Both the position numbers and the translations under genes were made by a program. The notes under the pieces were generated by a model, which made no database searches, was not told the origin of the DNA, and was given only the letters and a program-made list of their open reading frames with translations. Positions 25,481 through 39,087 of a DNA stretch of 64,000 nucleotides are shown piece by piece. Each line of letters opens with the position of its first letter. The stretch's first letter is position 1. Origin of the DNA: an uncultured Flavobacteriaceae bacterium (GTDB lineage Bacteria; Bacteroidota; Bacteroidia; Flavobacteriales; Flavobacteriaceae); NCBI GenBank assembly GCA_947497145.1, contig CANMFQ010000013.1, positions 62,001 through 126,000 of the forward strand, written 5' to 3'.

Positions 25481-26134
25481 ATGCTAAATTTTTCTTTATT
25501 TACAGGTATAACTGCTTCTGTATTACACGTAATTTCAGGCCCTGACCATTTAGCGGCAGTTACGCCACTAGCAATTGAGACTAGACGTAAAATATGGAAA
25601 ATAGGCTTGTTTTGGGGTTTTGGTCACCTTACGGGAATGCTTTTAATAGGCATTCTTTTACTCATGTTTAAATCATTTATTCCTTTAGAAGAGATATCCG
25701 AACATAGTGAATTACTAGTTGGTATTGTACTTATAGCAATAGGGCTATGGGCTTTGTTTCGCATTCTTTACAAAACTAAAAGCTACAAACATGAAGCCGA
25801 AATATTGAACCCTACTCATAGCAATGATAAAAAAATGAAGCAGCACCTTTGGTCTTCTTTTGGCATAGGAGTACTACATGGATTAGCAGGAATTGCACAT
25901 TTTATACTATTACTACCCGTTTTAGGGTTTGAAAACCAAATGGATAGCATCTTATACATTGTAGGTTTTGGAATAGGAACAGTTTTTGCAATGACACTAT
26001 ACACTTTTCTATTGGGAAAAATTACAACTTATTCCAAGCGCCAGCCTAGCCAGTCCCTTTACCGAAGCGTTCGCATTTCTGGTGGTTTGTTTGCCATTGG
26101 TATTGGTATTTATTGGCTCTATCTAAGCTTTTAA
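25481..26134 (+). CDS. Nickel/cobalt permease-like protein, NicO/UreH family
   Basis: A 217-residue integral membrane protein with about six helices. The signature SGPDHLAAVTP at about 19-29 follows H16, and the second motif GFGHLTG lies in the next helix; HGLAGIAHF in the second half mirrors the first. These His/Asp motifs mark Ni/Co transporters of the NicO (UreH-like) family. It converges on the end of the hydrogenase operon, and its stop codon overlaps the stop codon of the NHL-repeat gene, so nickel supply for the hydrogenase is a natural reading. Metal specificity is inferred. Confidence 0.82.
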   Translation: MLNFSLFTGITASVLHVISGPDHLAAVTPLAIETRRKIWKIGLFWGFGHLTGMLLIGILLLMFKSFIPLEEISEHSELLVGIVLIAIGLWALFRILYKTKSYKHEAEILNPTHSNDKKMKQHLWSSFGIGVLHGLAGIAHFILLLPVLGFENQMDSILYIVGFGIGTVFAMTLYTFLLGKITTYSKRQPSQSLYRSVRISGGLFAIGIGIYWLYLSF

Positions 26135-27225
26135 AATTTCAATTCAGTAATCACCACACGGTGATTTCCTGTATCGGCAATGATGAGTTTGTTTCCATCG
26201 GTTGTAATAGAAAAAGGCCAGTATAAAGAGCTTGAAGTACCATTCATAGTTTCTTTGTTCTCACTTCCTGTGTTGAAATCACGCTTTCCAATGACTGCAG
26301 TTGCTACTGCATTTTGCTGCTTAGGAATTTCATTAAACCACAATATTCTACTATTTCCAGTATCATTTACCAGCAAGCCGTCTTTATAAAAACACGCATC
26401 ATAGGTCCAGTTTAGTGATTTTGAAGAAGGAAACAATCCAAATTGATTCTGCCCACATGCGTCAAAATTAGCCTGCCCAATAATGATGTCTGCTGGTTTT
26501 GAAAAAGCATCATCCCAAGCATTCCACAAGAGGTTTCTATAAAATTGCGTATCAGCAACTACCATTTGCTTTTTGTCATTGACTTTTACAGAATATGGCC
26601 AAATAGGTTGGTGGTTTTCATAGTCTCGGGTAGTAAAGTCTTCCTTACCAATAACCTTGCTCGCTTCTGCATAATTGGATTTAGGAATAGTATTATAGTA
26701 AAGTATTCTTCGGTTTCCTGTATCGGCAATCCATAGACTCTTTCCATCGGAGAAAACGCCGTATGGCCAATTTAATGTTTTTGCTGAGGGATTATTACCA
26801 ATACCGATAGCATTAGGTTGATTTGAGTTGAAATCAGGTTGACCTATGACCACATCTGCAGGTTGACCGTTTTCAGTGGGCAATGAATGCCAAATTAAAA
26901 CACGATGATTCCACGCATCAGCCACAACCAAAATTTTCCCATCACTCCATATGCCAGAAGGGTATAAAAGGGTATTTGCTGTAACATCACCGCCAGAATT
27001 TCTTCCTGTATCTTCAATGTTTAACTGTCCAAGAACTACATCGGGCTCTTGGAATTCCGAAGTAGGCATACTCTTCCATATAAAAACACGATTTCTCCCT
27101 GTATCAGAAACAAAAAGGTGATTATTTGCCGTAAATATGCCTCTTGGTGCTAATAAAGGCACTTTTCTTGAACCTCTAAAAACATAGGAATTTGTAACGT
27201 GTGGGCCGAGCGTATCAAAATTCAT
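26131..27225 (-). CDS. NHL-type beta-propeller protein, last gene of the hydrogenase operon
   Basis: A 364-residue protein of NHL-type repeats with the recurrent core (V/I)ADTGNxR(I/V): VSDTGRNRVFIW, VADAWNHRVLIW, IADTGNRRILYY, VNDTGNSRILWF, IADTGNHRVVI. Between blades comes VVLGQ, VIGQPDFN, VIGKEDF, IIIGQANFD, VIGKRDFN. This suggests a six-bladed propeller. No signal peptide, so cytoplasmic. The ATG at 27225 follows hypE's stop (27227-27229) with a one-base gap, so translation is coupled; the longer GTG start at 27252 is less likely. NHL genes are known in group 1h/5-type hydrogenase loci; their role there is not established. A scaffold or electron-transfer partner role is inference. Confidence 0.88.
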   Translation of the reverse strand: MNFDTLGPHVTNSYVFRGSRKVPLLAPRGIFTANNHLFVSDTGRNRVFIWKSMPTSEFQEPDVVLGQLNIEDTGRNSGGDVTANTLLYPSGIWSDGKILVVADAWNHRVLIWHSLPTENGQPADVVIGQPDFNSNQPNAIGIGNNPSAKTLNWPYGVFSDGKSLWIADTGNRRILYYNTIPKSNYAEASKVIGKEDFTTRDYENHQPIWPYSVKVNDKKQMVVADTQFYRNLLWNAWDDAFSKPADIIIGQANFDACGQNQFGLFPSSKSLNWTYDACFYKDGLLVNDTGNSRILWFNEIPKQQNAVATAVIGKRDFNTGSENKETMNGTSSSLYWPFSITTDGNKLIIADTGNHRVVITELKF

Positions 27226-27226
27226 A

Positions 27227-28285
27227 TTAACAAATTCTCGGTAATTGTTCACCCGGCAACATGCTAATTACACGTTTACCTCCAATAGCACTCTCCATAA
27301 TTACTTGTTTAGGATGTTCTGCAACAACGCTTCCAATAATACATGCATTTTTACCATTATCATCTTGCTGTAAAGTTGCTAAAACAGCATCAGCCTCCAA
27401 CTGGGAAACAAAGGCTATAAAAAGTCCCTCATTAGCAACATACAAGGGGTCTAAACCTAATAACTCACAAGCACTTGCTACTTGCTCATCTATAGGAAAG
27501 TTTCGTTGCACTAGGTTTATTCCTATTTCTGAAGATTGTGCTATTTCTTTTAAAACAGTTGCAACTCCACCTCGTGTGGGGTCTGTTAGCAAATGTATAC
27601 TGGACCCAAATTTCTCAATTAAACCAATGATAGTATGATTGAGATTGGTGGTATCGCTTTTAATTTCAGAATCAAATTCTAAACCTTCTCTAACAGACAT
27701 AATAGCCATTCCATGAGCAGCAAGGTTTCCACTAATAATAATTTTATCTCCTACGGATATGTTTTTTGTGCTAATATTCGCTTTTTTATGAATAGACCCA
27801 ACTCCTGATGTATTTATGAATATTTTATCGCCTTTTCCTTTTTCCACAACTTTGGTATCTCCTGTAACCACCTGTACTCCTGCTTTTTCACAGGCAAATT
27901 TAATAGCTATTAAAATGTCCCAAAATTCTGTAACGCGAAGCCCCTCTTCAATAATAAAACTAAGCGAAAGGTATTTAGGTGTTGCGCCGCACATTGCTAA
28001 GTCATTCACCGTTCCATTAATGGCTAATTCTCCTATATTTCCCCCAGGAAAAAAGATAGGAGATACTAAAAAACTATCTGTTGAAAAAGCTGTTTTTCCA
28101 TTCAATTCTATAAAAGCACCATCATGACGTTCATCAAGAATAGGATTACTAAGTAGGTCGAAAACACCACTATCTAAAAGTTTATTGGTGAGTACTCCCC
28201 CACTTCCATGACCCAAAGTGATGACATCAAAATCTAGTTTAGGCATAGGGCACTGCAACTGCATATTTATTTTATTTTTTTCCAT
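27227..28285 (-). CDS. hypE: [NiFe]-hydrogenase maturation protein HypE
   Basis: A 352-residue HypE, which dehydrates a carbamoyl group on its C-terminal Cys to make the cyanide ligand of the active site. The C-terminus is PRIC, with Cys352 as the acceptor. The N-terminal GHGSGG motif and the AIR-synthase-like fold (ALNGTVNDLAMCGA-like segment INGTVNDLAMCG) are present. I take ATG 28285; a GTG at 28303 would add six residues. In most loci hypE follows hypD directly; here a RAYT gene and REP palindromes lie between. Confidence 0.95.
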   Translation of the reverse strand: MEKNKINMQLQCPMPKLDFDVITLGHGSGGVLTNKLLDSGVFDLLSNPILDERHDGAFIELNGKTAFSTDSFLVSPIFFPGGNIGELAINGTVNDLAMCGATPKYLSLSFIIEEGLRVTEFWDILIAIKFACEKAGVQVVTGDTKVVEKGKGDKIFINTSGVGSIHKKANISTKNISVGDKIIISGNLAAHGMAIMSVREGLEFDSEIKSDTTNLNHTIIGLIEKFGSSIHLLTDPTRGGVATVLKEIAQSSEIGINLVQRNFPIDEQVASACELLGLDPLYVANEGLFIAFVSQLEADAVLATLQQDDNGKNACIIGSVVAEHPKQVIMESAIGGKRVISMLPGEQLPRIC

Positions 28286-28315
28286 ATTCGTATCAAACTT
28301 CACTGGTTCAACAAA

Positions 28316-28364
28316 ACCTCACAGGTCTTAAAGACCTGTGAGGTATCATAAAGACCTCTGAGGT
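28316..28364. repeat. REP-like palindrome 1 (hypE/RAYT gap)
   Basis: ACCTCACAGGTCTT (28316-28329) and AAGACCTGTGAGGT (28331-28344) form a perfect 14-bp inverted repeat around one central base. A partial third arm AAGACCTCTGAGGT follows at 28351-28364. The same core recurs at four other gaps of this operon. Confidence 0.85.
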
Positions 28365-28378
28365 ATCAAGGTATTCCT

Positions 28379-28939
28379 TTATTCTAATGCTAACTGTTCT
28401 TCCAACTCAAATTTTTTGTTTAAATGCGCATATTCAAAATTAGCGATATCTTCAAATAGACCCAAAATATAATCACGGCTCAATTTTGATGGTAAGGCTG
28501 ATAAATAACTTTGATATGAGGAATGTGGATAACTTCTAAAATCATGAGTAAACCCATGATGTTGCGGGTTTAAGTGTACATAAATCACAAGATTCTTTAC
28601 ATACGCCTCATTTTCTATTTTCTTTCTTTTAAATCTATCTCTAAAAAGACTTCCAGAGCGGCCATAGGCTTTATTTATTGCTTTAGCGTAGGTATTAAAA
28701 AAATTAGATAGCTTTTGCGAAATCATTTTATGCTCCAAATTATCATGGAATTTCAGTATCAAATGAAAATGATTTTTCATTAAACAATACGCATATATCT
28801 CTGAAATAGGGCTAATATACTTACCCAATAATCTTAGAAAATATGTGTAATTACGGTTTTCTAAAAAGATATCCTCACTGTTATTTCCTTGGTTATAGAT
28901 ATGATAATAAGTATCAGATACTATTGGTTCGTATTTCAT
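28379..28939 (-). CDS. REP-associated tyrosine transposase (RAYT), Y1_Tnp domain
   Basis: A 186-residue single-strand transposase of the IS200/IS605-like Y1 family. The HUH motif lies in LMKNHFHLIL (H57, H59), and the catalytic tyrosine is probably Y120 in NLVIYVHLNPQHHGF. RAYTs recognise and mobilise REP palindromes; those with the CCTCACAGGTC core flank this gene on both sides. It interrupts the hyp cluster between hypD and hypE, in the same orientation. It appears intact. The link between this RAYT and these REPs is inferred from proximity. Confidence 0.9.
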   Translation of the reverse strand: MKYEPIVSDTYYHIYNQGNNSEDIFLENRNYTYFLRLLGKYISPISEIYAYCLMKNHFHLILKFHDNLEHKMISQKLSNFFNTYAKAINKAYGRSGSLFRDRFKRKKIENEAYVKNLVIYVHLNPQHHGFTHDFRSYPHSSYQSYLSALPSKLSRDYILGLFEDIANFEYAHLNKKFELEEQLALE

Positions 28940-29044: not shown

Positions 29045-30139
29045 TTAGGCTTCTACTAATCCAGAAAAGTGGTAGTATGCTGCACATGCTCCCTCACTAC
29101 TCACCATAGGAGCTCCTAACGGATTTGTTGGTTTACATTTTTTGCCAAATTGAGAACATTCAAAAGGCTTCTTAATTCCCTTCATAATCTGACCTGAAAT
29201 ACAATTAGGATTCTCGGGTGCTTCTTCAATAGTAACATGGTACTTTTTAGCGGCATCAAATGCTGCATACTTCGCTCTAACGGCATAACCACTTTCAGGA
29301 ATTTCACCAATGCCCCGCCACATTTGATTTTTTATTTCAAAAACCTCATTAATAACTTTTTGCGCTTCAGGATTACCATCTTCACGAACAATACGAGCAT
29401 ATTGATTTTCAACTTTAGACTTTCTTTGCTCTAATTGACGAACAACCATTAAAATTCCTTGTAAAACATCTAAAGGTTCAAAACCAGTAACTACAATAGG
29501 CACTTTGTATTTTGCAGATAATGGATGATATTCTGAATTACCCATGATTGTACAGACGTGACCCGCTGCTAAAAACCCATCTATCTTACTTTCTTCATCA
29601 TCAATAACCGCTTTTATTGCAGGTGGCACCAGTACATGTGACGCTAAAATGGCATAATTTTTTACTTTTCTGCGATGTGCATGAACAACAGACAAGGCAT
29701 TAGCAGGAGCAGTAGTTTCAAAACCAACTGCAAAAAAAACAACTTCCTTATCTGGGTTTTCTTCTGCAATTTTAACTGCTTCTAACGGAGAATATAAAAT
29801 ACGAATATCAGCACCTTCAGCTTTTACTTCTAACAGGTTTTTTTTAGAGCCTGGCACCCGTAACATATCACCAAAAGAACATAAAATAACCCCTTTTTTG
29901 GAAGCTAAATAAATAGCTTTATCAATTAAATTTAACGGAGTTACACAAACGGGGCATCCAGGACCATGTATCATGGTAACCTCCTTTGGAAGCATATCTA
30001 TAATACCATTTTTAACCAAGCTATGTGTTTGCCCTCCGCAAACTTCCATAATAGACCAAGGTTGTGACACTGTACTTTTTATTTCGTCTAAATATTTTTT
30101 GGCTAACGCTGGGTCGCGATATTCTGACATATACTTCAT
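29045..30139 (-). CDS. hypD: [NiFe]-hydrogenase maturation protein HypD
   Basis: A 364-residue iron-sulfur scaffold on which, with HypC, the Fe(CN)2CO unit is assembled. Signature segments are [29 protein letters not shown], and the C-terminal Cys-rich end ([12 protein letters not shown] then CSQFGKKC). The gene starts at ATG 30139, though an ATG at 30130 (MSEYRDP) is also possible. It lies 9 bp downstream of hypC. All typical Cys motifs are retained. Confidence 0.95.
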
Positions 30140-30148
30140 AATGCCTTA

Positions 30149-30424
30149 TTATTTTGTTTTTGGCAAATATTCATCTACATCCTCCAAATCTCCCAATTCA
30201 CCTATTTCTGCTAGATATTTGAATGTTTTTTGCGCTTCTTCTTCATTTACTTTACTAATTGCAACACCTACATGTACTAAAACATAATCACCAACATCGG
30301 CATCTGGTAACATTTCTAAACTTGCCTCTTTTGTAATACCACCAAAAAGTACTTTGGCCATACGTACTCTACCATCATATTGAAGTTCAATACGCTTAAT
30401 TTTTCCCGGAATTGCTAAACACAT
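30149..30424 (-). CDS. hypC: [NiFe]-hydrogenase maturation chaperone HypC
   Basis: A 91-residue protein starting MCLAIPGKIKRIE, the HypC/HybG signature. Cys2 (exposed after removal of Met1) contacts the iron carried by HypD and guides it to the large-subunit precursor. The C-terminal helix (EEEAQKTFKYLAEIGEL) is typical. It lies 3 bp after hypF and 9 bp before hypD, consistent with translational coupling. Confidence 0.96.
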   Translation of the reverse strand: MCLAIPGKIKRIELQYDGRVRMAKVLFGGITKEASLEMLPDADVGDYVLVHVGVAISKVNEEEAQKTFKYLAEIGELGDLEDVDEYLPKTK

Positions 30425-30427
30425 AAT

Positions 30428-32689
30428 TTAATTTTTAATATGTTGATGATACCATAATTGACCTAACGATATGTTCTCATCGTTACTTGACAATATACGA
30501 TTAAATTTTAATTCAACACCCCTTGATTCAGCGGTTTGAAGTAGTTTTTTTACCAAAATCGCATTCTGAAAAACCCCTCCGCTGCAAGCAATACAATGAT
30601 ATTGATGCTGCTGCGCTATTTTAATAATTAGTAGTGCAAGTGTATGAATTAAGCTATCTGCTATTTGTGCTGCTGCCATACCTTTATCAATGGCTTTGCA
30701 AATGTTTTGTATGATAGTTTTTGTTGGGATTTTGGTATACGTAATTCCCTGTAGAAAATCAATAAATTCTGTACTATGGTATTCCATAGCCTTATTTTCT
30801 AAAAGCATAGCGGCTTCCCCTTCATAGGTAGTAGTATCTATATGAAGCAATAGGGATGCTACAGCATCAAACACCCGTCCTACCGAGCTTGTTTTTAGCC
30901 TATTGCCTGCTAGCATCTTAGTGTATACCTGCCATTCGGTATCAGAAAATCTATCCTTTATCCGATGCCTCTCTCCTTCGGGAAGCATACTAAGTAACGA
31001 CAAACGTGGCTCTTTTGCCATTTTATCTGCCGCAATCCAATCCACATATTCAAAATGGGTCAATCGTTCTATATGGTTATTTTGATAAGAAAAAAACTCA
31101 CCACCCCAAATTGCATTATCCTCTCCAAGACCCGTTCCATCCCATACCACACCAAGAATTTTCTCTTCGGACTCAAACAGGTTGTGCTCCCCTAAAACAC
31201 TGGCAAAATGTGCTTTATGATGTTGTATTCGCACCAATTCTGCACTCCATTGAGATGCCAATTCTCTACCTGTAATACTACTCTGATATTGCGGATGAAA
31301 ATCAATTAGAACAAGCTCTGGCTCGGTATTAAAAAGCAAGATGTATTTTGATATTTGCTCTTGGTAACGCTCCAAAACCTCATAACTGTCTAAATTTCCA
31401 AAATAGGGACTCACATATATATTGGCATTGGGGGTAAAAGTAAACGTACTTTTTAAATGAGCTCCCATAGCCAATATCTTCTCGTTATTTAATGCATTAT
31501 TACCCATATAGTTGGGAGCAAGACCACGTGAGCGTCTCAGTATGATTTGATGTTCCCCGATGCAACGAACTACCGAATCATCTTGTGGAAAAGAAATTAT
31601 CAAATTATGATGTAAAAAATAATCTGCTACTTCTGATAGCTTTGCTATTGCCTCATCTTTCTCAGAAATTATGGGAGAACCATGAATATTTCCACTAGTG
31701 GCAATAATTGGTATTTTTACTTCATCCATCAAAAGTGTTAGCAATGGTGATGCGGGTAACATTACCCCTAATTGGTTTAACCCAGGAGCTATACTTTCAC
31801 ATTCTAAATCCGTACTACGTGCATCCAGATGTAGAAGAACAATTGGTGCTACAGAAGAAGTAAGTGCTTGTTCTTCTTCCTTAGTTATTCTAAAATTTTT
31901 TTTAACTTTTTCAATAGTAGCATAGAGTATTGCAAAAGGTTTTGACGGGCGCTGTTTTTTTTCACGCAGTCGTTCAATTGCTTCTTTATTATTAGCATCG
32001 CAACAAAGCAAATAGCCGTTTGTGTTTTTTATGGCAAGAATACTTCCTGTAGCAAGTAATTGGGCAGCTTTTTTAATACCATTACTTTGGTTTTCCTTAA
32101 ATGCTATACCGTTGGCATCAACTAATTGAAGCCTTATACCACACATATTACAACTGTTGGTTTGTGAATGAAACCGGCGGTCATCTGGATTAATGTATTC
32201 CTCTTCGCATTTTTTACACATGCTAAAACTAGCAACTGTTGTGTGGGCTCTTTCAAAAGGAAACTTTGTGGTAAGTGCATAACGGGGTCCACAATGGGTA
32301 CATGTTGTAAAAGCATAGCCATAGCGTCTATTGCTGATATCTCTTATCTCAGATTTACATGATTCACAAATAGCAAAATCTGGAGTTAAAGGAATATTGA
32401 TTTGATTATTTGTTTTCGAAGGAATTATCTTAAAATCAGTATATGCCCTAAAAGTAACTTCTGAGATAGCATAGTTTTGAATTACCGAAACTTGGGGGGC
32501 TTCCTTTACAATGGTCAATAAAAATTCTTGTGCTTTTTCTTTTGAAGTATTGATGTGAATACAAACGCCGTCTTGATTATTACAAACCGAACCATTAAGT
32601 TGAAACTGTTGTGCTAAATTATATACAAAAGGGCGAAAACCCACCCCTTGTACTTGACCCGATATGATAATCTCAAAGGTTTTAATCAT
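30428..32689 (-). CDS. hypF: [NiFe]-hydrogenase maturation carbamoyltransferase HypF
   Basis: A 753-residue HypF that turns carbamoyl phosphate into the carbamoyl donor for HypE. Domains in order: acylphosphatase (residues 1-90, SGQVQGVGFRPFVYN), two zinc-finger units (C108/C111/C130/C133 and C158/C161/C180/C183), a YrdC-like domain (from about 200), and the Kae1-like domain (VRIQHHKAHFASVLGEH). All expected metal ligands and His residues are present. The gene lies between hypB and hypC, separated from hypB by a REP-like palindrome. Confidence 0.96.
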   Translation of the reverse strand: MIKTFEIIISGQVQGVGFRPFVYNLAQQFQLNGSVCNNQDGVCIHINTSKEKAQEFLLTIVKEAPQVSVIQNYAISEVTFRAYTDFKIIPSKTNNQINIPLTPDFAICESCKSEIRDISNRRYGYAFTTCTHCGPRYALTTKFPFERAHTTVASFSMCKKCEEEYINPDDRRFHSQTNSCNMCGIRLQLVDANGIAFKENQSNGIKKAAQLLATGSILAIKNTNGYLLCCDANNKEAIERLREKKQRPSKPFAILYATIEKVKKNFRITKEEEQALTSSVAPIVLLHLDARSTDLECESIAPGLNQLGVMLPASPLLTLLMDEVKIPIIATSGNIHGSPIISEKDEAIAKLSEVADYFLHHNLIISFPQDDSVVRCIGEHQIILRRSRGLAPNYMGNNALNNEKILAMGAHLKSTFTFTPNANIYVSPYFGNLDSYEVLERYQEQISKYILLFNTEPELVLIDFHPQYQSSITGRELASQWSAELVRIQHHKAHFASVLGEHNLFESEEKILGVVWDGTGLGEDNAIWGGEFFSYQNNHIERLTHFEYVDWIAADKMAKEPRLSLLSMLPEGERHRIKDRFSDTEWQVYTKMLAGNRLKTSSVGRVFDAVASLLLHIDTTTYEGEAAMLLENKAMEYHSTEFIDFLQGITYTKIPTKTIIQNICKAIDKGMAAAQIADSLIHTLALLIIKIAQQHQYHCIACSGGVFQNAILVKKLLQTAESRGVELKFNRILSSNDENISLGQLWYHQHIKN

Positions 32690-32700
32690 AGCTTTTAATA

Positions 32701-32749
32701 GACCCCACAGGTCTCTAAGGCCTGTGAAGTTTATGACCTGTGGAGTTTA
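32701..32749. repeat. REP-like palindrome 3 (hypB/hypF gap)
   Basis: CCCCACAGGTCTC-TAAGGCCTGTGAAG is an imperfect inverted repeat, and an additional arm GACCTGTGGAG follows. It is the same family as the copies at 28316, 28968, 33514 and 36458. Confidence 0.75.
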
Positions 32750-32771: not shown

Positions 32772-33470
32772 TTAGTGGTTTTTCTTCAATTGAATTTTTT
32801 CTAAAAGCCAATCACACCATGTATCAATACCCTCATCAGAAAGGGCGGAAACCTGAATAACTTCCAACTCATGATTCACTTCACGAGCGTCTTTAGTTAC
32901 TGCTTCCACAGAAAAAGGAACATAGGGCAATAAATCTGCTTTAGAAACCAACATCATATCACTTGTCAAAAACATTTTAGGATATTTTTTTGGTTTGTCA
33001 TCACCTTCGGTTGTTGCCATAAGAGTTACTCTATAATCTTCGCCTAAATCAAAAGATGATGGGCATACGAGGTTTCCTACATTTTCAATAAATAGCAAAT
33101 CAATATTTTCCAAATCAAATTGGTCTAACACTTGATGTATCATTTGCGCTTCTAAATGACAAATACCTCCTGTAACAATTTGCAAAGCTTGAATTCCCGT
33201 TTCCCGAATACGGTCTGCATCACGTTCTGTTTCCAAATCACCCACCATAACAGCCATAGTAATTTTATCCTTCAGTTTTTGCGCCGTTTTCTGCATCAAC
33301 GTTGTTTTACCACTACCCGCAGAAGAGGTGATATTTATGAGAAGTGTACCCGTTTTTGCCATTTCCTTTTTAATAATACCAGCTACAAAATCGTTAGCCT
33401 TAAGTAAATTAATATTGGTATTTTCACATTGCACAGTGCCACGTGCCGCTTTGGTTGATTTTTCTATCAT
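32772..33470 (-). CDS. hypB: [NiFe]-hydrogenase nickel-insertion GTPase HypB
   Basis: A 232-residue G3E GTPase. Walker A GSGKTT is at 52-57, and the metal site C104-H105 lies in GGICHLEAQ. The N-terminal region has no His-rich nickel-storage stretch and no CxxCGC motif, which fits a HypB that relies on transporter and HypA for nickel supply. It acts with HypA, whose gene lies just upstream. The RIRETGIQALQIVTGG and ADLLPYVPF segments are also typical. Confidence 0.96.
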   Translation of the reverse strand: MIEKSTKAARGTVQCENTNINLLKANDFVAGIIKKEMAKTGTLLINITSSAGSGKTTLMQKTAQKLKDKITMAVMVGDLETERDADRIRETGIQALQIVTGGICHLEAQMIHQVLDQFDLENIDLLFIENVGNLVCPSSFDLGEDYRVTLMATTEGDDKPKKYPKMFLTSDMMLVSKADLLPYVPFSVEAVTKDAREVNHELEVIQVSALSDEGIDTWCDWLLEKIQLKKNH

Positions 33471-33513: not shown

Positions 33514-33560
33514 CTTATTTAGACCTCACAGGTCTCCAAGACCTGTGAGGTCTAAATAAG
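33514..33560. repeat. REP-like palindrome 4: perfect 22-bp hairpin (hypA/hypB gap)
   Basis: The left arm (33514-33535) and the right arm (33539-33560) are exact reverse complements over 22 bp with a 3-nt loop (CCA). The core is AGACCTCACAGGTCT. It is the most perfect member of the REP set and would fold very strongly in the mRNA between hypA and hypB. Confidence 0.9.
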
Positions 33561-33575
33561 TAGGGCTAACATCAA

Positions 33576-33923
33576 TTAATCTTCAAATTCTACTTTATGA
33601 ATTAACATTTCTTCTCCTTGAATTACGTTCTTGCTAGGGCGTTCACATTTTTCACATATAAAACGATATTGCTTAACGTCTGTGATATGGTCACAGACAT
33701 CACATTGTATTTTTAAACTTGTAGATTCTACATGTAATTCTACATGTTGATACCTAGGATAGGTTAAATGATATGCGCTATATGCATTATATAATAACCG
33801 TGGTTCAATATTAGATAGGATACCTACTTTTAAATGAATAGCTTTCATTTTGTTCAATTTTTCAGCTTCAAACTCCTGTTCTAAGGTTCTCATTATACTA
33901 TTTACAATAGAGGTTTCGTGCAT
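33576..33923 (-). CDS. hypA: [NiFe]-hydrogenase nickel chaperone HypA
   Basis: A 115-residue HypA. The N-terminal MHE motif binds nickel through His2, and the zinc site uses C74, C77, C90 and C93 (CDVC and CEKC). It delivers nickel to the large-subunit precursor with HypB. It lies 7 bp downstream of the helical-repeat protein gene. Confidence 0.96.
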   Translation of the reverse strand: MHETSIVNSIMRTLEQEFEAEKLNKMKAIHLKVGILSNIEPRLLYNAYSAYHLTYPRYQHVELHVESTSLKIQCDVCDHITDVKQYRFICEKCERPSKNVIQGEEMLIHKVEFED

Positions 33924-33930
33924 TCTTAAA

Positions 33931-35412
33931 CTATATTAAACTTTTTATTTTTTCTAATTCTTGCAAATGCTTGTCTGCTTGTGCTAACAAATCAGCATCA
34001 GTTACTAAAGTTTTAACCGCCATGGCTTTAGCTTTCATAGCCTCATATTTTTCTACCGCTTCTTCATTAGTGGCATTATGTGTTAGCCAGCCCAATTCTA
34101 ACTGATTCAGAAGCGTTAGAGCACGCTCAAAAGGATAGCTATCTGCAGTTCTTAAAAGAAGTGCTTCTTCAAATAAACCAGCTGCCTTCTCTAAATTATC
34201 ATGAATTTTTGCAGGAGGAAAATGCATCAATGCCGTAGCATAGTTATGACTAGCCATTGCATGCTCATAAGGATACTGCTCTTTTGTATAAAAAGCCAAT
34301 ACCTCTTTAAACGATGAGGCACAAAAAGCTGTCCACATTGGCTTTTCTTCAGAGGATACTGGTATTTCGGAATAAATTAAAGCCAAATTATGATGCACAT
34401 CGGCAAATTTCTGAGGATGCGTATCTCTCTTGAATATTTTTAAAACATCTTGAAAAGCATTGATGGCCGCTTTATAGTATTGCGGATTCCCATTCTTAGA
34501 CCAGGTATATAACAGGATAGCCTTTTTAAAGCCAGCTTCACCTAAAAATTCAGGAATATCTTCTTGTTTAAAGTATAGAATAGCTTTATTAATCAGCGTT
34601 TTTGAAGCCATAAAATCTCCCTTAAAATTCGCTACTTCTGCCGCATCAACCAACAGCATTCCTGCTTGCGTTTTTAAGCCTTTCTCTTCAAAATATGCAA
34701 TAGATTGCAATTGCATTTGATGCACTTCATCTAACTCAGCTTTGCTATATGGCATTTGTAATTGCGCCATTAAAATCCCTGCCATATGAACATTCATTGC
34801 ATTTTTGGCTTCATCTGAAATAGCAATTTCACTGTGCTCTTGTACAAGTTGTTTTGCTTCATCCAACTCACCTGCATCTAAAAGCAAGTTTAATAAGTGC
34901 TTTCCTGTAAATACCTTATTCTCATCATTTTTAGATTTTGCAATGGCATCAACAAAAACTGCCTTCAACGCTTCATTGGTTAATGGGTTTTCAACAACAC
35001 CGTAATAATTTAAAATAGCGTGATTGTGTGGCGACGTATTATAACAGAAATTAACCATACTATCAGACAGCTCATAACCAAAATGTAAATGCGTCGCAAT
35101 TAAGAGATGGTAATATATTGGTGATGATTCTACAACATATTCAAAAGATTTTTGATGGTTTCCTAGTTTGTAAAAGACTAAAGCTAAAAGATAATCGGTT
35201 GAAAAAGGTATAGCAGGAAACACATAGGGTGGTTCTAAATCATACCAATCCAAAGGAATTGTAATGTCATTAGTATCTACAACCAGGGCTTTCACGTCCT
35301 GTATACTACTAGCATCTTGGGTTACGGTTACCAATTCATGCAATCTATCTACAGATGCAATAGCATCTTGAACGGGTTGTTTTTTATCAATTGTTGTTAA
35401 TATCGTAAGCAT
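33931..35412 (-). CDS. TPR-like helical repeat protein in hydrogenase operon
   Basis: A 493-residue soluble protein made of repeated helices. The segments MLVDAAEVANFKGDFMASKTLINKA, KKAILLYTWSKNGNPQYYKAAINAF, KFADVHHNLALIYSEI and HAMASHNYATALMHF fit tetratricopeptide repeats (about six or more) in the C-terminal two thirds. It has no signal peptide. Its start overlaps the end of the small upstream gene (35387-35412). TPR genes are known in group 1h/5-type hydrogenase loci, where their role is unknown; a scaffold or assembly role is inferred. Confidence 0.8.
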   Translation of the reverse strand: MLTILTTIDKKQPVQDAIASVDRLHELVTVTQDASSIQDVKALVVDTNDITIPLDWYDLEPPYVFPAIPFSTDYLLALVFYKLGNHQKSFEYVVESSPIYYHLLIATHLHFGYELSDSMVNFCYNTSPHNHAILNYYGVVENPLTNEALKAVFVDAIAKSKNDENKVFTGKHLLNLLLDAGELDEAKQLVQEHSEIAISDEAKNAMNVHMAGILMAQLQMPYSKAELDEVHQMQLQSIAYFEEKGLKTQAGMLLVDAAEVANFKGDFMASKTLINKAILYFKQEDIPEFLGEAGFKKAILLYTWSKNGNPQYYKAAINAFQDVLKIFKRDTHPQKFADVHHNLALIYSEIPVSSEEKPMWTAFCASSFKEVLAFYTKEQYPYEHAMASHNYATALMHFPPAKIHDNLEKAAGLFEEALLLRTADSYPFERALTLLNQLELGWLTHNATNEEAVEKYEAMKAKAMAVKTLVTDADLLAQADKHLQELEKIKSLI

Positions 35413-35644
35413 CTTTGTCTACTTTTTGTGTCCCTCTAGGGTCTTTTGCTGCTATTTGTTGCATATTTCTTCCATAAATTTCTGCTAGCCGCTCTGTTCT
35501 ATAATCTCCAATAGTTTGTATTAAAACTTGATTGGGGTCTTTGGTGTTTATAAATAGCAGCGAAACTTCCCAACGACCTTTTACCGGGGTAACCTTGTAT
35601 TGCACCTCGGCATCTAATAGCCAGTCGTCCTTTGATTTCGTCAT
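35387..35644 (-). CDS. Small conserved protein in hydrogenase operon (85 aa)
   Basis: An 85-residue hydrophilic protein starting MTKSKDDWLLDAEVQYKVTP. It overlaps the preceding gene by 4 bp and the TPR gene by 26 bp, so it belongs to one coupled translational unit. I do not recognise the family. It has no Cys and no membrane segment, so it is not itself a redox carrier. Role unknown, but the tight packing between protease and TPR genes argues for a hydrogenase-linked function. Confidence 0.75.
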   Translation of the reverse strand: MTKSKDDWLLDAEVQYKVTPVKGRWEVSLLFINTKDPNQVLIQTIGDYRTERLAEIYGRNMQQIAAKDPRGTQKVDKDAYDINNN

Positions 35645-35961
35645 AAAATTTGCACCTTAATTAAATTTGTCTTTTTTATAATTTCATAAGCTAAATCTCT
35701 ATCTGCCATATCCAAATCATTATCGATAAGCATTTCTCTTATGGCTATTGTTTTATCTCCTTTTAAATTACGTGATTTTAGCAAAAATTGAGTGGGTTTG
35801 TACATTTTTACAAACCACTGACTTGAAACGGGTGTGATTAAGATGGTTCCTTGTTCTTTTACATAGGTTACGTAGGCGTAATGAATAGCACCAAAAATAG
35901 ATGTTATCAATTCATTATCTATATAAATATGAGCAGATTTTAGGGTAATTTTAGCACTCAC
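35641..35961 (-). CDS. Small conserved protein in hydrogenase operon (106 aa)
   Basis: A 106-residue protein starting with GTG, inside a GTGA overlap with the stop of the protease gene. It begins MSAKITLKSAHIYIDNELIT and ends LAYEIIKKTNLIKVQIL. I recognise no domain. It lacks Cys, His clusters and membrane segments. The four-base overlaps on both sides point to strict co-expression with the hydrogenase maturation protease and the 85-aa gene. Confidence 0.72.
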   Translation of the reverse strand: MSAKITLKSAHIYIDNELITSIFGAIHYAYVTYVKEQGTILITPVSSQWFVKMYKPTQFLLKSRNLKGDKTIAIREMLIDNDLDMADRDLAYEIIKKTNLIKVQIL

Positions 35962-36440
35962 GTAGGTATGGATAAATTCAAGTCATCTAAAATGTGTTGC
36001 ACTACCTTATCTCCAGCTTCTTTTACCACATTGCTTAAATCTACTTCAAGTTTGGTATTTTCAATAGCAACTAAGTATACCTGAATGTCATCTGGATATT
36101 CATCTTGCAGTATCTTTTTTGTATACGATAATGCTTGGTCCCATTTCATTCCGTGAAGAAATACCAAAGGGTCATCTTGTGGTGCCTTCATTACCTCTTC
36201 TGCGGGAACTTTAAACAAGGTACCTACGGGTTCATTGGTGTTTAAGACTCCATCAACCAAAATAATTTTGTTATGCCCTTTTAATCCAAAAAGCACCTCA
36301 AAAGCAGCTGTACCCATATCAAATATGCTAATATCATCAGATTCAGGAAGTTTTTTCACCAACTGCTCAATCACATAAATACCAATTGCATCATCACTAC
36401 GAACAGGATTTCCAAACCCCATTATTGCCGTCTTCATCAT
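35958..36440 (-). CDS. [NiFe]-hydrogenase maturation endopeptidase (HyaD/HycI family)
   Basis: A 160-residue protease that removes the C-terminal extension of the large subunit after nickel insertion. The N-terminus MGFGNPVRSDDAIGIY has the GxGNxxxxDD motif of the family, with a second acidic segment in IILVDGVLN and the later His in FLHGMKWDQ. It directly follows the large-subunit gene, separated by a REP-like palindrome, which is the expected place for a dedicated protease. Confidence 0.92.
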   Translation of the reverse strand: MMKTAIMGFGNPVRSDDAIGIYVIEQLVKKLPESDDISIFDMGTAAFEVLFGLKGHNKIILVDGVLNTNEPVGTLFKVPAEEVMKAPQDDPLVFLHGMKWDQALSYTKKILQDEYPDDIQVYLVAIENTKLEVDLSNVVKEAGDKVVQHILDDLNLSIPT

Positions 36441-36457
36441 TTGTTTTTTATATACAA

Positions 36458-36494
36458 AAACCTCACAGGACTTAGAGACCTGCGAGGTCTAAGG
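36458..36494. repeat. REP-like palindrome 5 (large subunit/protease gap)
   Basis: AACCTCACAGGAC-TTAG-AGACCTGCGAGGTC is an imperfect member of the same palindrome family as the copies at 28316, 28968, 32701 and 33514. Confidence 0.75.
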
Positions 36495-36513: not shown

Positions 36514-38106
36514 TTAAAGTTTAAATCTTGATAGCTCAACACCGCTTTTTGCATCATGTGCATGCACAGTACATACAAGGCAAGAATCAAAAGAGCGTGC
36601 CACAATACCAACTTCTACAGGGTCAGACGGGTCTTCAATAGTAGTACCCAATAATGCCTCTTCAATAGGCCCAGGGTTATCATCTCCATCTTGCGGCCCC
36701 ACATTCCATGTGGTTGGTGCCATTACTTGGTAGTTTTTTATAACACCATCTTTAATCTCTATCCAATGTGCCAAGGCACCCCGAGCAGCTTCGGTAGAAC
36801 CAAAGCCCTTACCATCTTTCTCTACAGGCTTTATATAAAACTCCCCATCTAAATCTATTTCAGACAACCATTGTTCAATGAATTTGTATAATCTTGGAGC
36901 TTCATGAACTCTAGCCAAAACTCTAGTAAATACACTAGGCCCCAATTTTTTCATAATATCGCCAAATAAAGGGTCTTTAATTTGATGGTCTTTATTATTG
37001 GGATTAGCATTCATAATCACACGTGCTAAAGGACCTGCTTCTGCTGCATGCCCATCATAACGCGGGGCTTTTGCCCAGCTGTACTGACCGTCAAAATCAC
37101 TATCATGTAAAGCCTGAGATTTAGCAGGTGTTGGCAATGGCTCATCCCAAGGGTGTAGCCCATCTTCTTGGTCATTATACCAAGAGTGTTTTACGTGTTC
37201 ACTCACCTTCATGTGGTCAAATTCATGATAGTTTTCACCATCAAAAAATCCGCTAGAACTTATTAACGCATCATTTCTACCTTCAATAGTTGGGTTGTTG
37301 TACCTGTCTTTGTGTAAATAGGTTCCTGTTGCTAAAAATTTACCAACACCTTGACCAAATTTATCCAATCCAAATTCTAGACCAGCACGAATCAATAACC
37401 CCAAATCACTATTTTTCTGTGATTCATTTTCATCAACCCAAGCCAACATATCATCCCAAGTCTTTATTTCCATATACCGCTCAATAGAGCAACCCAACCA
37501 AACGGGTTCTAGCCAATCATTTTTAAACTGTGTCATGATTGCGTGGGCTCTTGTAATATCTTTTAAGGTAGGAGCACACATTACACCCCCTGGCACCATA
37601 TAACTAGAGTGTGGCCATTGACCACCAAATAGTGCATAAACCTGCACAGGTAAACCACTTGCGGTTAATCCTATCTGAAAAGTTTCACCTACATAGGCAG
37701 CCCAACGTTTTACCACTTCCTTATAGAGCGGTTGGTTGGCATATTTTTTATTTGCCAAATCTGTAGCAAAAATAGCATAAAACCATCTGGGAATACTTTG
37801 AATAGTTTCTGTTGCTTGACCAATTGCTCTTAATAAAAGGGCATTGGGTGTTAATTTGGTTCCCCAAGCGGTATCTAATGCTGAAGAGGCACAATATAGG
37901 TGAGACCCTCCACAGATACCACAAATTCTAGGCGTAACAATAAGACCGGATTGTGGGTCTTTACCTTCCATTATTTTTTCAAACCCCCTAAACATTGCTG
38001 CTTGTGTATGCGCACGCGTAACCTTGCCATTATCAATGTAGACTTTAACATCTAAGTCTCCTTCAACACGACCCACAGGGGATATATTTAATTCTGTAAC
38101 TGACAT
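36514..38106 (-). CDS. [NiFe]-hydrogenase large (catalytic) subunit, group 1h/1l-like
   Basis: A 530-residue large subunit. The N-terminal nickel motif is RICGICGGSH, with C62 and C65. The C-terminal motif SFDSCLVCTVH has C509 and C512, and H515 is the expected cleavage position, leaving a 15-residue extension (AHDAKSGVELSRFKL) for the protease. The L2 motif has DSCLVC rather than DPCLAC. With the small subunit's features this matches the group 1h/5 or 1l hydrogenases, some of which oxidise H2 at trace levels in air. I cannot assign the exact HydDB subgroup by eye. Confidence 0.95.
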   Translation of the reverse strand: MSVTELNISPVGRVEGDLDVKVYIDNGKVTRAHTQAAMFRGFEKIMEGKDPQSGLIVTPRICGICGGSHLYCASSALDTAWGTKLTPNALLLRAIGQATETIQSIPRWFYAIFATDLANKKYANQPLYKEVVKRWAAYVGETFQIGLTASGLPVQVYALFGGQWPHSSYMVPGGVMCAPTLKDITRAHAIMTQFKNDWLEPVWLGCSIERYMEIKTWDDMLAWVDENESQKNSDLGLLIRAGLEFGLDKFGQGVGKFLATGTYLHKDRYNNPTIEGRNDALISSSGFFDGENYHEFDHMKVSEHVKHSWYNDQEDGLHPWDEPLPTPAKSQALHDSDFDGQYSWAKAPRYDGHAAEAGPLARVIMNANPNNKDHQIKDPLFGDIMKKLGPSVFTRVLARVHEAPRLYKFIEQWLSEIDLDGEFYIKPVEKDGKGFGSTEAARGALAHWIEIKDGVIKNYQVMAPTTWNVGPQDGDDNPGPIEEALLGTTIEDPSDPVEVGIVARSFDSCLVCTVHAHDAKSGVELSRFKL

Positions 38107-38127: not shown

Positions 38128-39087
38128 TTATTTAGAAGTTTCTGTTATTCTTTTATTCTTGGGCATGACTTTTTGAAAGCCAGCTTCTAAATAATAGGCT
38201 AGTTTACTTCTACCTTCTGGTACTTCTTTTGGAAAAACCCCTAAGTGCTTCATGGTTTTTAAAACACTACCTTTCATAAGGTCATTATGTGGAAAACCAG
38301 GTTCTGTGCATCCTAGGCAAGGATGGTTTGAACGGGTTTTGCTAGACTGCCTATTCCAAAGAATATTATTACAACTTGCTCTCGTCATTGGTCCTCTACA
38401 TCCTACTTCATAGAAAAGACATCCACCTCTACGTCCAAATCCTCCGTCTACTTTTTGAGCAAAGTTTGTTACGTTTGTACAGCCGTCTTGAACGAAGTCT
38501 GTAAAGAATGTTTTTGGTCTGTGATAATCATCTATAAGTACATCACCAATTCTTCCCACAGCAATAGCCACAAGAATCTGTGTAATCCAATCTGGATGTG
38601 CAGGGCAACCGGGAATATTAATTACTGGTAAACCGCCTTTTGATACATAGTTTGCACCAAGGAAACCACCTTTGTTCTTTTTAAGGAATTGCATTCCTGT
38701 AGATTCACTTGGATTGGGAGCAACAGCTGGGATACCTCCCCATGTTGCACAATCTCCAATTGCAACCACATATCCTGCCACTTCAGAAAGTTCTTTAATC
38801 CAATCCTTCATGGGGCGGTCTGCAAATAAATTCATGGTACCTGTATTGTCTGGCCCTTGAATAATGGAACCTTCAAACACAAGAATATCCATCTGCACTT
38901 TTCCTGCAAGAATATCTTTTAAAAGGTCTTGAACTTGGTCTCCTATCTGTAAACCGGTGGTTGGATGCCATAAAATATTGAGTCCAAAATCGGTAATAAG
39001 TTCTACTACCGATGGTTCTTCGGCATTTAAAAAAGACATGGTGTTGCCACTACAAGCACCTCCCTGTAACCATAATACGTTTGCCAT
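38128..39087 (-). CDS. [NiFe]-hydrogenase small subunit, group 1h/1l-like, no Tat signal
   Basis: A 319-residue iron-sulfur subunit that starts directly at MANVLWLQGGACSGNTMSFL, with no twin-arginine leader. Cys12 is in place, but residue 15, normally the second Cys of CTGC, is Asn. Other proximal ligands are C113 (GDCATWGG) and C161 (NIPGCPAHPDW). H189 and C203, C223, C230 and then C239, C257, C260 supply the distal and medial clusters. The CSGN motif is, from memory, the norm in actinobacterial-type (group 1h) enzymes. The lack of a C-terminal membrane helix suggests a soluble or peripherally attached complex. Confidence 0.94.
   Translation of the reverse strand: MANVLWLQGGACSGNTMSFLNAEEPSVVELITDFGLNILWHPTTGLQIGDQVQDLLKDILAGKVQMDILVFEGSIIQGPDNTGTMNLFADRPMKDWIKELSEVAGYVVAIGDCATWGGIPAVAPNPSESTGMQFLKKNKGGFLGANYVSKGGLPVINIPGCPAHPDWITQILVAIAVGRIGDVLIDDYHRPKTFFTDFVQDGCTNVTNFAQKVDGGFGRRGGCLFYEVGCRGPMTRASCNNILWNRQSSKTRSNHPCLGCTEPGFPHNDLMKGSVLKTMKHLGVFPKEVPEGRSKLAYYLEAGFQKVMPKNKRITETSK

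Follow-up and report, generated by a model that had tools for sequence, protein, structure and literature searches.

Three genes tied to Huc-type (group 2a) hydrogenases in Bacteroidota and other bacteria form a candidate assembly module around large-subunit maturation

Within the window – the whole 64,000-nucleotide stretch of an uncultured Flavobacteriaceae genome analysed here – three genes lie between a hydrogenase maturation protease gene and hypA, encoding a 106-aa protein (p106), an 85-aa protein (p85) and a TPR-like protein. Homologues of these genes show strict genomic linkage to the Huc hydrogenase, conserved order and in-frame fusions. Because the trio travels only with Huc across distant bacteria, its products are probably dedicated assembly helpers and not electron carriers. 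We favour, at a probability of roughly 55%, the reading that they make up an assembly module dedicated to Huc (group 2a), with a role at about the point where the large subunit is matured.

The hydrogenase operon is encoded on the (-) strand. Its structural genes are those of a Huc-type small subunit (HucS-like, 38128..39087) and a Huc-type, group 2a large subunit (HucL-like, 36514..38106), and they are followed by a maturation protease of the HycI/HyaD type (35958..36440; PF01750 E=8e-13, TIGR00072). Then come the two small Huc-linked genes – p106 (35641..35961), which uses a GTG start and has a predicted MraZ-like fold, and p85 (35387..35644), with a predicted alpha-beta-beta-beta-alpha arrangement – and the gene for the 493-aa TPR-like protein (33931..35412), which is conserved in Huc loci of several phyla. 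The initial annotation had described these three genes as overlapping one another or their neighbours by 4, 4 and 26 bp, and all of its coordinates were confirmed: p106 overlaps the protease gene by 4 bp, p85 overlaps p106 by 4 bp, and the TPR-like gene overlaps p85 by 26 bp, with 7 bp separating the TPR-like gene from hypA (33576..33923; PF01155), the nickel chaperone gene. Beyond hypA, we named hypB (32772..33470), hypF (30428..32689), hypC (30149..30424), hypD (29045..30139) and hypE (27227..28303) by sequence and place, with homologues in the same place in other loci. The last gene, for an NHL-repeat protein (26131..27252; PF01436 E=4e-16), completes the conserved accessory genes of Huc loci that lie outside the hyp set.

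REP-like palindromes (ACCTCACAGGTCT..AGACCTGTGAGGT) occupy four gaps of this operon, at window positions 28316-28364, 32702-32730, 33523-33551 and 36460-36488. Half-sites of this kind gave 10 matches in the window against 0.5 expected, nine of them within the operon gaps. A gene for a Y1 (IS200-like) transposase, with a Pfam score just under the cut-off, lies between hypD and hypE (28379-28939) and adjoins one of the palindromes.

The initial annotation had placed the enzyme in group 1h/1l, an assignment that we reject. In PDB sequence searches the best matches of the large subunit were the M. smegmatis Huc structures 7uus/7utd (E ~1e-205), and the next from any other group reached 4.5e-64. 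C. necator HofG (5aa5), a group 1h hydrogenase and the reference used for that group, was far weaker at E=6.6e-39. The large subunit is 61% identical to a plasmid copy from M. intracellulare and 57% identical to a plasmid copy from Sphingopyxis alaskensis. From the PDB ranking and these identities we conclude that the enzyme is Huc. Its small subunit begins MANVLWLQGG, aligns with M. intracellulare HucS from residue 1 and has no Tat signal peptide by eye; a small subunit lacking this signal is a defining trait of Huc. Huc uses no cytochrome b subunit, so the absence of one here is normal for this enzyme. In M. smegmatis Huc, the quinone connection is a stalk formed by HucM, which carries menaquinone (PMC10017518), and the Sphingopyxis plasmid enzyme is described as a group 2a hydrogenase active on H2 down to sub-atmospheric levels (PMC10305171).

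We regard p106 and p85 as real genes because dN is low over diverged synonymous sites – 0.09-0.21 against three flavobacterial loci, with dS large, saturated or not computable (2 of 6 comparisons) – and because most of the 80 related loci have homologues in the corresponding position. The two are not related to each other (0.5% by profile comparison), and they define two protein families outside Pfam and NCBIfam. Neither window protein matched a Pfam family (E up to 1) or an NCBIfam family (E up to 0.1). A Pfam scan of every member of both families returned just chance-level matches in one or two members, and an NCBIfam scan of seven non-Bacteroidota p106 proteins gave one match, at E 0.037. 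PDB sequence searches with p106 and p85 led nowhere, and no relative was found among viral contigs. As the initial annotation had noted, the small proteins contain no cysteine and no membrane segment (0 Cys each; highest 19-residue Kyte-Doolittle mean 0.81 for p106 and 0.57 for p85). Sequence comparison supports the TPR label only weakly (Pfam TPR_12, E=0.0012 and 19.5 bits, under the cut-off of 30.1); homologues in Thermus and Sulfobacillus carry a TPR annotation.

To describe the linkage we used loci from a large-subunit scan of named genomes, taking the best 80 of 421; these were selected by large subunit, are mostly Bacteroidota and include some near-duplicates (L044 and L045, for example). 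Of this best 80, 74 loci extend 3 kb or more past hucL; p106 occurs in 71 of the 74, as does the TPR gene, and p85 lies downstream in 42. When only loci from the same 80 with both flanks were considered, p85 lay on either side in 59 of 63 and on both sides in 15. The misses for p106 and the TPR gene were L108, L115 and L123, the last being an artefact of our ORF-position rule: L123 does hold p106 (E 7e-10) and the TPR gene. Those for p85 were L070, L088, L122 and L123. L116 stands outside the 74, having been scored on a second hucL copy. The set conserved in Bacteroidota loci comprises the small and large subunits, the protease, p106, p85, the TPR protein, HypABFCDE and the NHL protein.

Genome-wide searches gave the same picture. 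Across 296 Bacteroidota genomes, p106 was present in five and p85 in five, and the large subunit was matched at E<1e-280 in the same five (G000, G014, G183, G333 and G422), with p106 and p85 a few kb from hucL. Another 103 of the 296 had weaker large-subunit matches only (E 3e-52 or worse), and neither protein was found in any of them. A single-sequence search of 148 relatives found p106 in four, the same four that have a large subunit 92-100% identical to that of the window, and in none of the eight relatives with other hydrogenases. Because p106 and p85 are missing from all 103 weaker-match genomes, we rejected the idea that they are general hydrogenase or nickel factors. The same absence argues against ordinary co-expression, by which the genes would sit in the operon to meet a need of the cell, for instance to stabilise another Hyp protein or to handle nickel, and would serve no Huc-specific assembly step. 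Tight overlaps are common in bacterial operons – the 4-, 4- and 26-bp overlaps are by themselves ordinary packing, and the evidence lies in conservation and linkage – and hypA comes directly after the trio, so this explanation has something in its favour; we consider it rather unlikely. A shared operon may nonetheless mean shared regulation without a shared step, which counts against the assembly module.

In many Bacteroidota an additional p85 homologue, longer than the first, lies some 2 kb ahead of the hucL start, between two TetR-family genes, in a block that precedes hucS (L031:8788-9156, L083:7648-8103, L100:7645-8031 and other Bacteroidota loci). Each of the two TetR genes was matched in 45 loci, and Pfam recognises TetR in L083. 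L114 and L116 each have two hucS-hucL pairs, and each pair has its own upstream p85 homologue.

The association extends beyond the Bacteroidota. In Huc loci that lie on plasmids in Alphaproteobacteria, Thermus, Sulfobacillus and Mycobacterium, the gene or domain that follows the protease matches p106, weakly by a profile built from Bacteroidota and clearly by profile-profile comparison of the Bacteroidota members with the others (hhalign 97.6%, E 4e-12). The Bacteroidota-built profile gave values of <1e-4 for L038 (already included), 1.2e-4 for L037, 0.0048 for L034 and L040, 0.005 for L039, 0.0068 for L033 and 0.018 for L035. Matches of another profile, A6, to L033 and L035-L040 hold by construction, since these loci went into it, and profile A3 (74 rows) includes L033 and L036; the support independent of A6 comes from the Bacteroidota-built profile, hhalign, L123 and L146-L150, the last two of these lying outside A6. 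The p85 family likewise joins its Bacteroidota and other members (96.4%, E 1e-9).

When we searched 396 actinobacterial genomes, p106 appeared in six, each time behind the protease gene in a Huc locus that also has a TPR gene; this result runs in one direction, from p106 to Huc. Among seven actinobacterial loci, p85 comes next in five (L146-L149 and L033) and was not found in L150 or L123, and HucM lies ahead of hucS in six, not being found in L148. With p106 and p85 following the protease in both phyla, the order protease-p106-p85-TPR is common to Actinobacteria and Bacteroidota. In the alphaproteobacterial and Thermus loci examined, p85 was not found. Given these absences of p85, and p106 unseen in 3 of 74 loci (one an artefact), the two small proteins are not universal, which is a point against the assembly module. 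The common, hydrogenase-linked role that the initial annotation proposed nevertheless stands: homologues do not occur mainly outside hydrogenase loci, p106 being next to Huc in 5/5 Bacteroidota and 6/6 actinobacterial genomes that hold it. Its group 1h/1l assignment did not stand, its electron-relay option is disfavoured, and its assembly option is the favoured one. A p106 homologue also lies at approximately L035:13107-13388, on Thermus thermophilus plasmid pTHTHE1601, where the record lists no gene.

Fusions link p106 to its neighbours on both sides. In four of the seven actinobacterial loci (L033, L123, L146 and L147) the protease and p106 share one reading frame, annotated in L033 as a single 257-aa protein, and in L148-L150 they are separate. 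In Sulfobacillus (L036) a single annotated gene encodes p106 and then p85. The fusion linkers contain no stop codon; there may be an internal start. When neighbouring genes fuse, this is a classic sign that they share a task, in this case beside the large-subunit protease, and does not give the nature of that task.

The initial annotation had also suggested that the small proteins could be electron-relay partners of the enzyme. A related explanation is that the trio supplies structural or electron-transfer parts of the mature enzyme, replacing the HucM stalk and HucE in Bacteroidota. HucM (DUF1641, PF07849) had no match in the window's genome, and its profile, run on 94 sources, reached E<0.01 in L033, L035, L036 and L123 only, with none in Bacteroidota loci. 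The HucE (NifU/Rieske) profile likewise matched non-Bacteroidota loci only; in the window's genome HucE gave partial matches of 51-56 residues, all on other contigs. Because 52 loci among L044-L122 extend at least 9 kb downstream and at least 4.5 kb upstream of hucL, these absences are not only a matter of truncated loci. What remains in Bacteroidota is the trio and the NHL protein: leaving aside the upstream TetR/p85 block, no further non-Hyp genes are conserved on the coding strand. In Actinobacteria, however, p106 and p85 stand beside HucM and so are not alternatives to it; the window's small proteins have neither cysteine nor a membrane segment; and p106 is fused to the maturation protease. 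We therefore rejected replacement of HucM as the main reading and hold it to be quite improbable. Purified M. smegmatis Huc is reported to contain HucS, HucL and HucM only (PMC10017518). M. smegmatis itself presumably has p106 and p85, judging from M. intracellulare and other actinobacteria. Because the two proteins accompany HucM and are absent from the reported purified subunits, a relay or stalk role is disfavoured, and we consider it unlikely for the trio as a whole. Purification could strip away a loosely attached subunit, which counts against the assembly reading. HucE matters in M. smegmatis, and the authors of that work leave a role in assembly open (PMC6883350).

Predicted structures bear on a further explanation, that p106, p85 or both are nucleic-acid-binding regulators of huc expression. 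The p106 model (mean pLDDT 96.5) aligned by VIA-align with five MraZ entries at Z 8.1-8.6 (rmsd 2.6-3.0, 91-93 residues), against 4.1 for the next unrelated chain. Because unmatched models typically reach a best Z of 7 to 8, and such values can arise from a common arrangement, the MraZ-like (PF02381) fold predicted for p106 is suggestive and not proof. The p85 model (mean pLDDT 80.5, with a low-confidence tail) is weakly dsRBD-like: its best Foldseek matches were a chain of a DHX29 complex (E 0.04) and a Dicer-like protein (E 0.23), and neither small protein had a Foldseek match at E 0.001 or less. A median pI of 9.3 in the p85 family and the p85 copy adjoining two TetR genes would also suit a regulator, and that second copy is not predicted by an assembly role. 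On the other side, p106 shows no profile similarity to MraZ: hhalign against 12 MraZ sequences from relatives gave probabilities of 0.6-1.3%, Pfam MraZ matched none of 75 p106 family members, and the DxxGRxxxP stretches of MraZ, its motif for DNA binding, were not seen by eye in alignments of p106, for which reasons we down-weighted an MraZ-type regulator. The p106 family has a median pI of 6.2, and fusion to a protease would be odd for a DNA-binding protein. For p85 the matches to dsRBD-like structures are weak (Z at most 5.2, from a model with a low-confidence tail), and the window's own p85, at pI 6.2, is not basic. We judge a regulatory role unlikely.

Under the assembly reading, p106 would act together with the maturation protease as an adaptor without catalytic activity, and it may hold or present the HucL precursor or hand the cleaved form to the small subunit. 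We suggest that p85 would bind or follow p106, that the acidic TPR protein could act as a scaffold, and that the NHL protein may be a further partner of the module. Physical contact, the step of action and the division of labour among p106, p85 and the TPR protein are parts of this proposal that we infer. A more specific version, which we offer tentatively as a possible but doubtful extension, is that p106 is an MraZ-fold domain recruited as a dedicated adaptor of the protease: it would recognise the HucL precursor and link its C-terminal cleavage with the docking of the small subunit, while p85 and the TPR protein would complete a platform used by Huc alone and kept even without HucM and HucE.

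Hypothetical, TPR and NHL genes in group 2a loci have been noted before. The Mycobacterium huc operon, also group 2a, is arranged HucM-HucS-HucL-protease-hypothetical-TPR-NifU/HucE-NHL-hyp; it resembles the window in enzyme family and in the order protease(+p106)-p85-TPR, and differs in having HucM, a HucE-like gene and a p106 fused to the protease, whereas the window has neither HucM nor HucE and its p106 is free. For a Parageobacillus group 2a locus, six proteins of unclear role are listed, TPR and NHL included (PMC6036681), and another study records that hypothetical and NHL genes accompany group 2a and also notes a Bacteroidota clade (PMC7784904). A third report describes a strong rise of the hypothetical gene after the protease at near-zero growth, along with the hydrogenase genes (PMC12976888); by its position, this gene would be p106. 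In the open literature, supplements aside, we found nothing that treats p106 or p85 as a family, and among the papers listed for locus tags MSMEG_2264-2268 we saw none that studies p106, p85 or the TPR protein. As far as we searched, the strict linkage, the fusions and the p106 fold seem to be new.

Two other accessory systems are comparable by description. In the extended hyp-operon of Nostoc (asr0689-alr0693), the stretch from hupSL to hyp contains unknown ORFs together with genes for TPR, NifU-like and NHL proteins, and a role in small-subunit maturation was proposed by the authors (PMC2408588, PMC3126725). It is thus alike in being an uptake hydrogenase locus with unknown ORFs, TPR and NHL genes between the structural and hyp genes; asr0689 and asr0690 are reported to have two membrane regions each, whereas p106 and p85 have none. 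The proteobacterial small-subunit accessory genes hupGHIJK/hoxOQ likewise form a dedicated group that lies between the structural genes and the hyp genes (PMC3126725). In the window's Huc small subunit, unlike in theirs, no Tat signal peptide is seen that would need masking.

In soils and in the sea, group 2a hydrogenases use up atmospheric H2, and little is known of how they are built. Our results reduce the accessory genes still to be explained to a few that are tied to Huc, and the fusions point to the protease step. The Bacteroidota, whose loci show neither HucM nor HucE, would offer a clean system for defining a minimal Huc assembly set, and they would also suit the question of how Huc reaches quinone without the known stalk. 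Such work may guide heterologous production of oxygen-insensitive hydrogenases.

Some huc loci carry further genes near the structural genes and the trio. In the alphaproteobacterial loci L034 and L039, two related four-Cys proteins are encoded between hucL and the protease (L034:11790-12499, L039:12684-13360). Behind the TPR gene these loci encode a pair of short hydrophobic peptides, and in L034 none of the four products has a Pfam match. Huc loci of the Saprospiraceae type have a second HucS-like gene in tandem ahead of hucS (L080:7769-8734, L109:7658-8749 and L120:2223-3230; also L077, L082, L087 and L103), and the HucS cysteines look conserved in the three tandem copies that we aligned.
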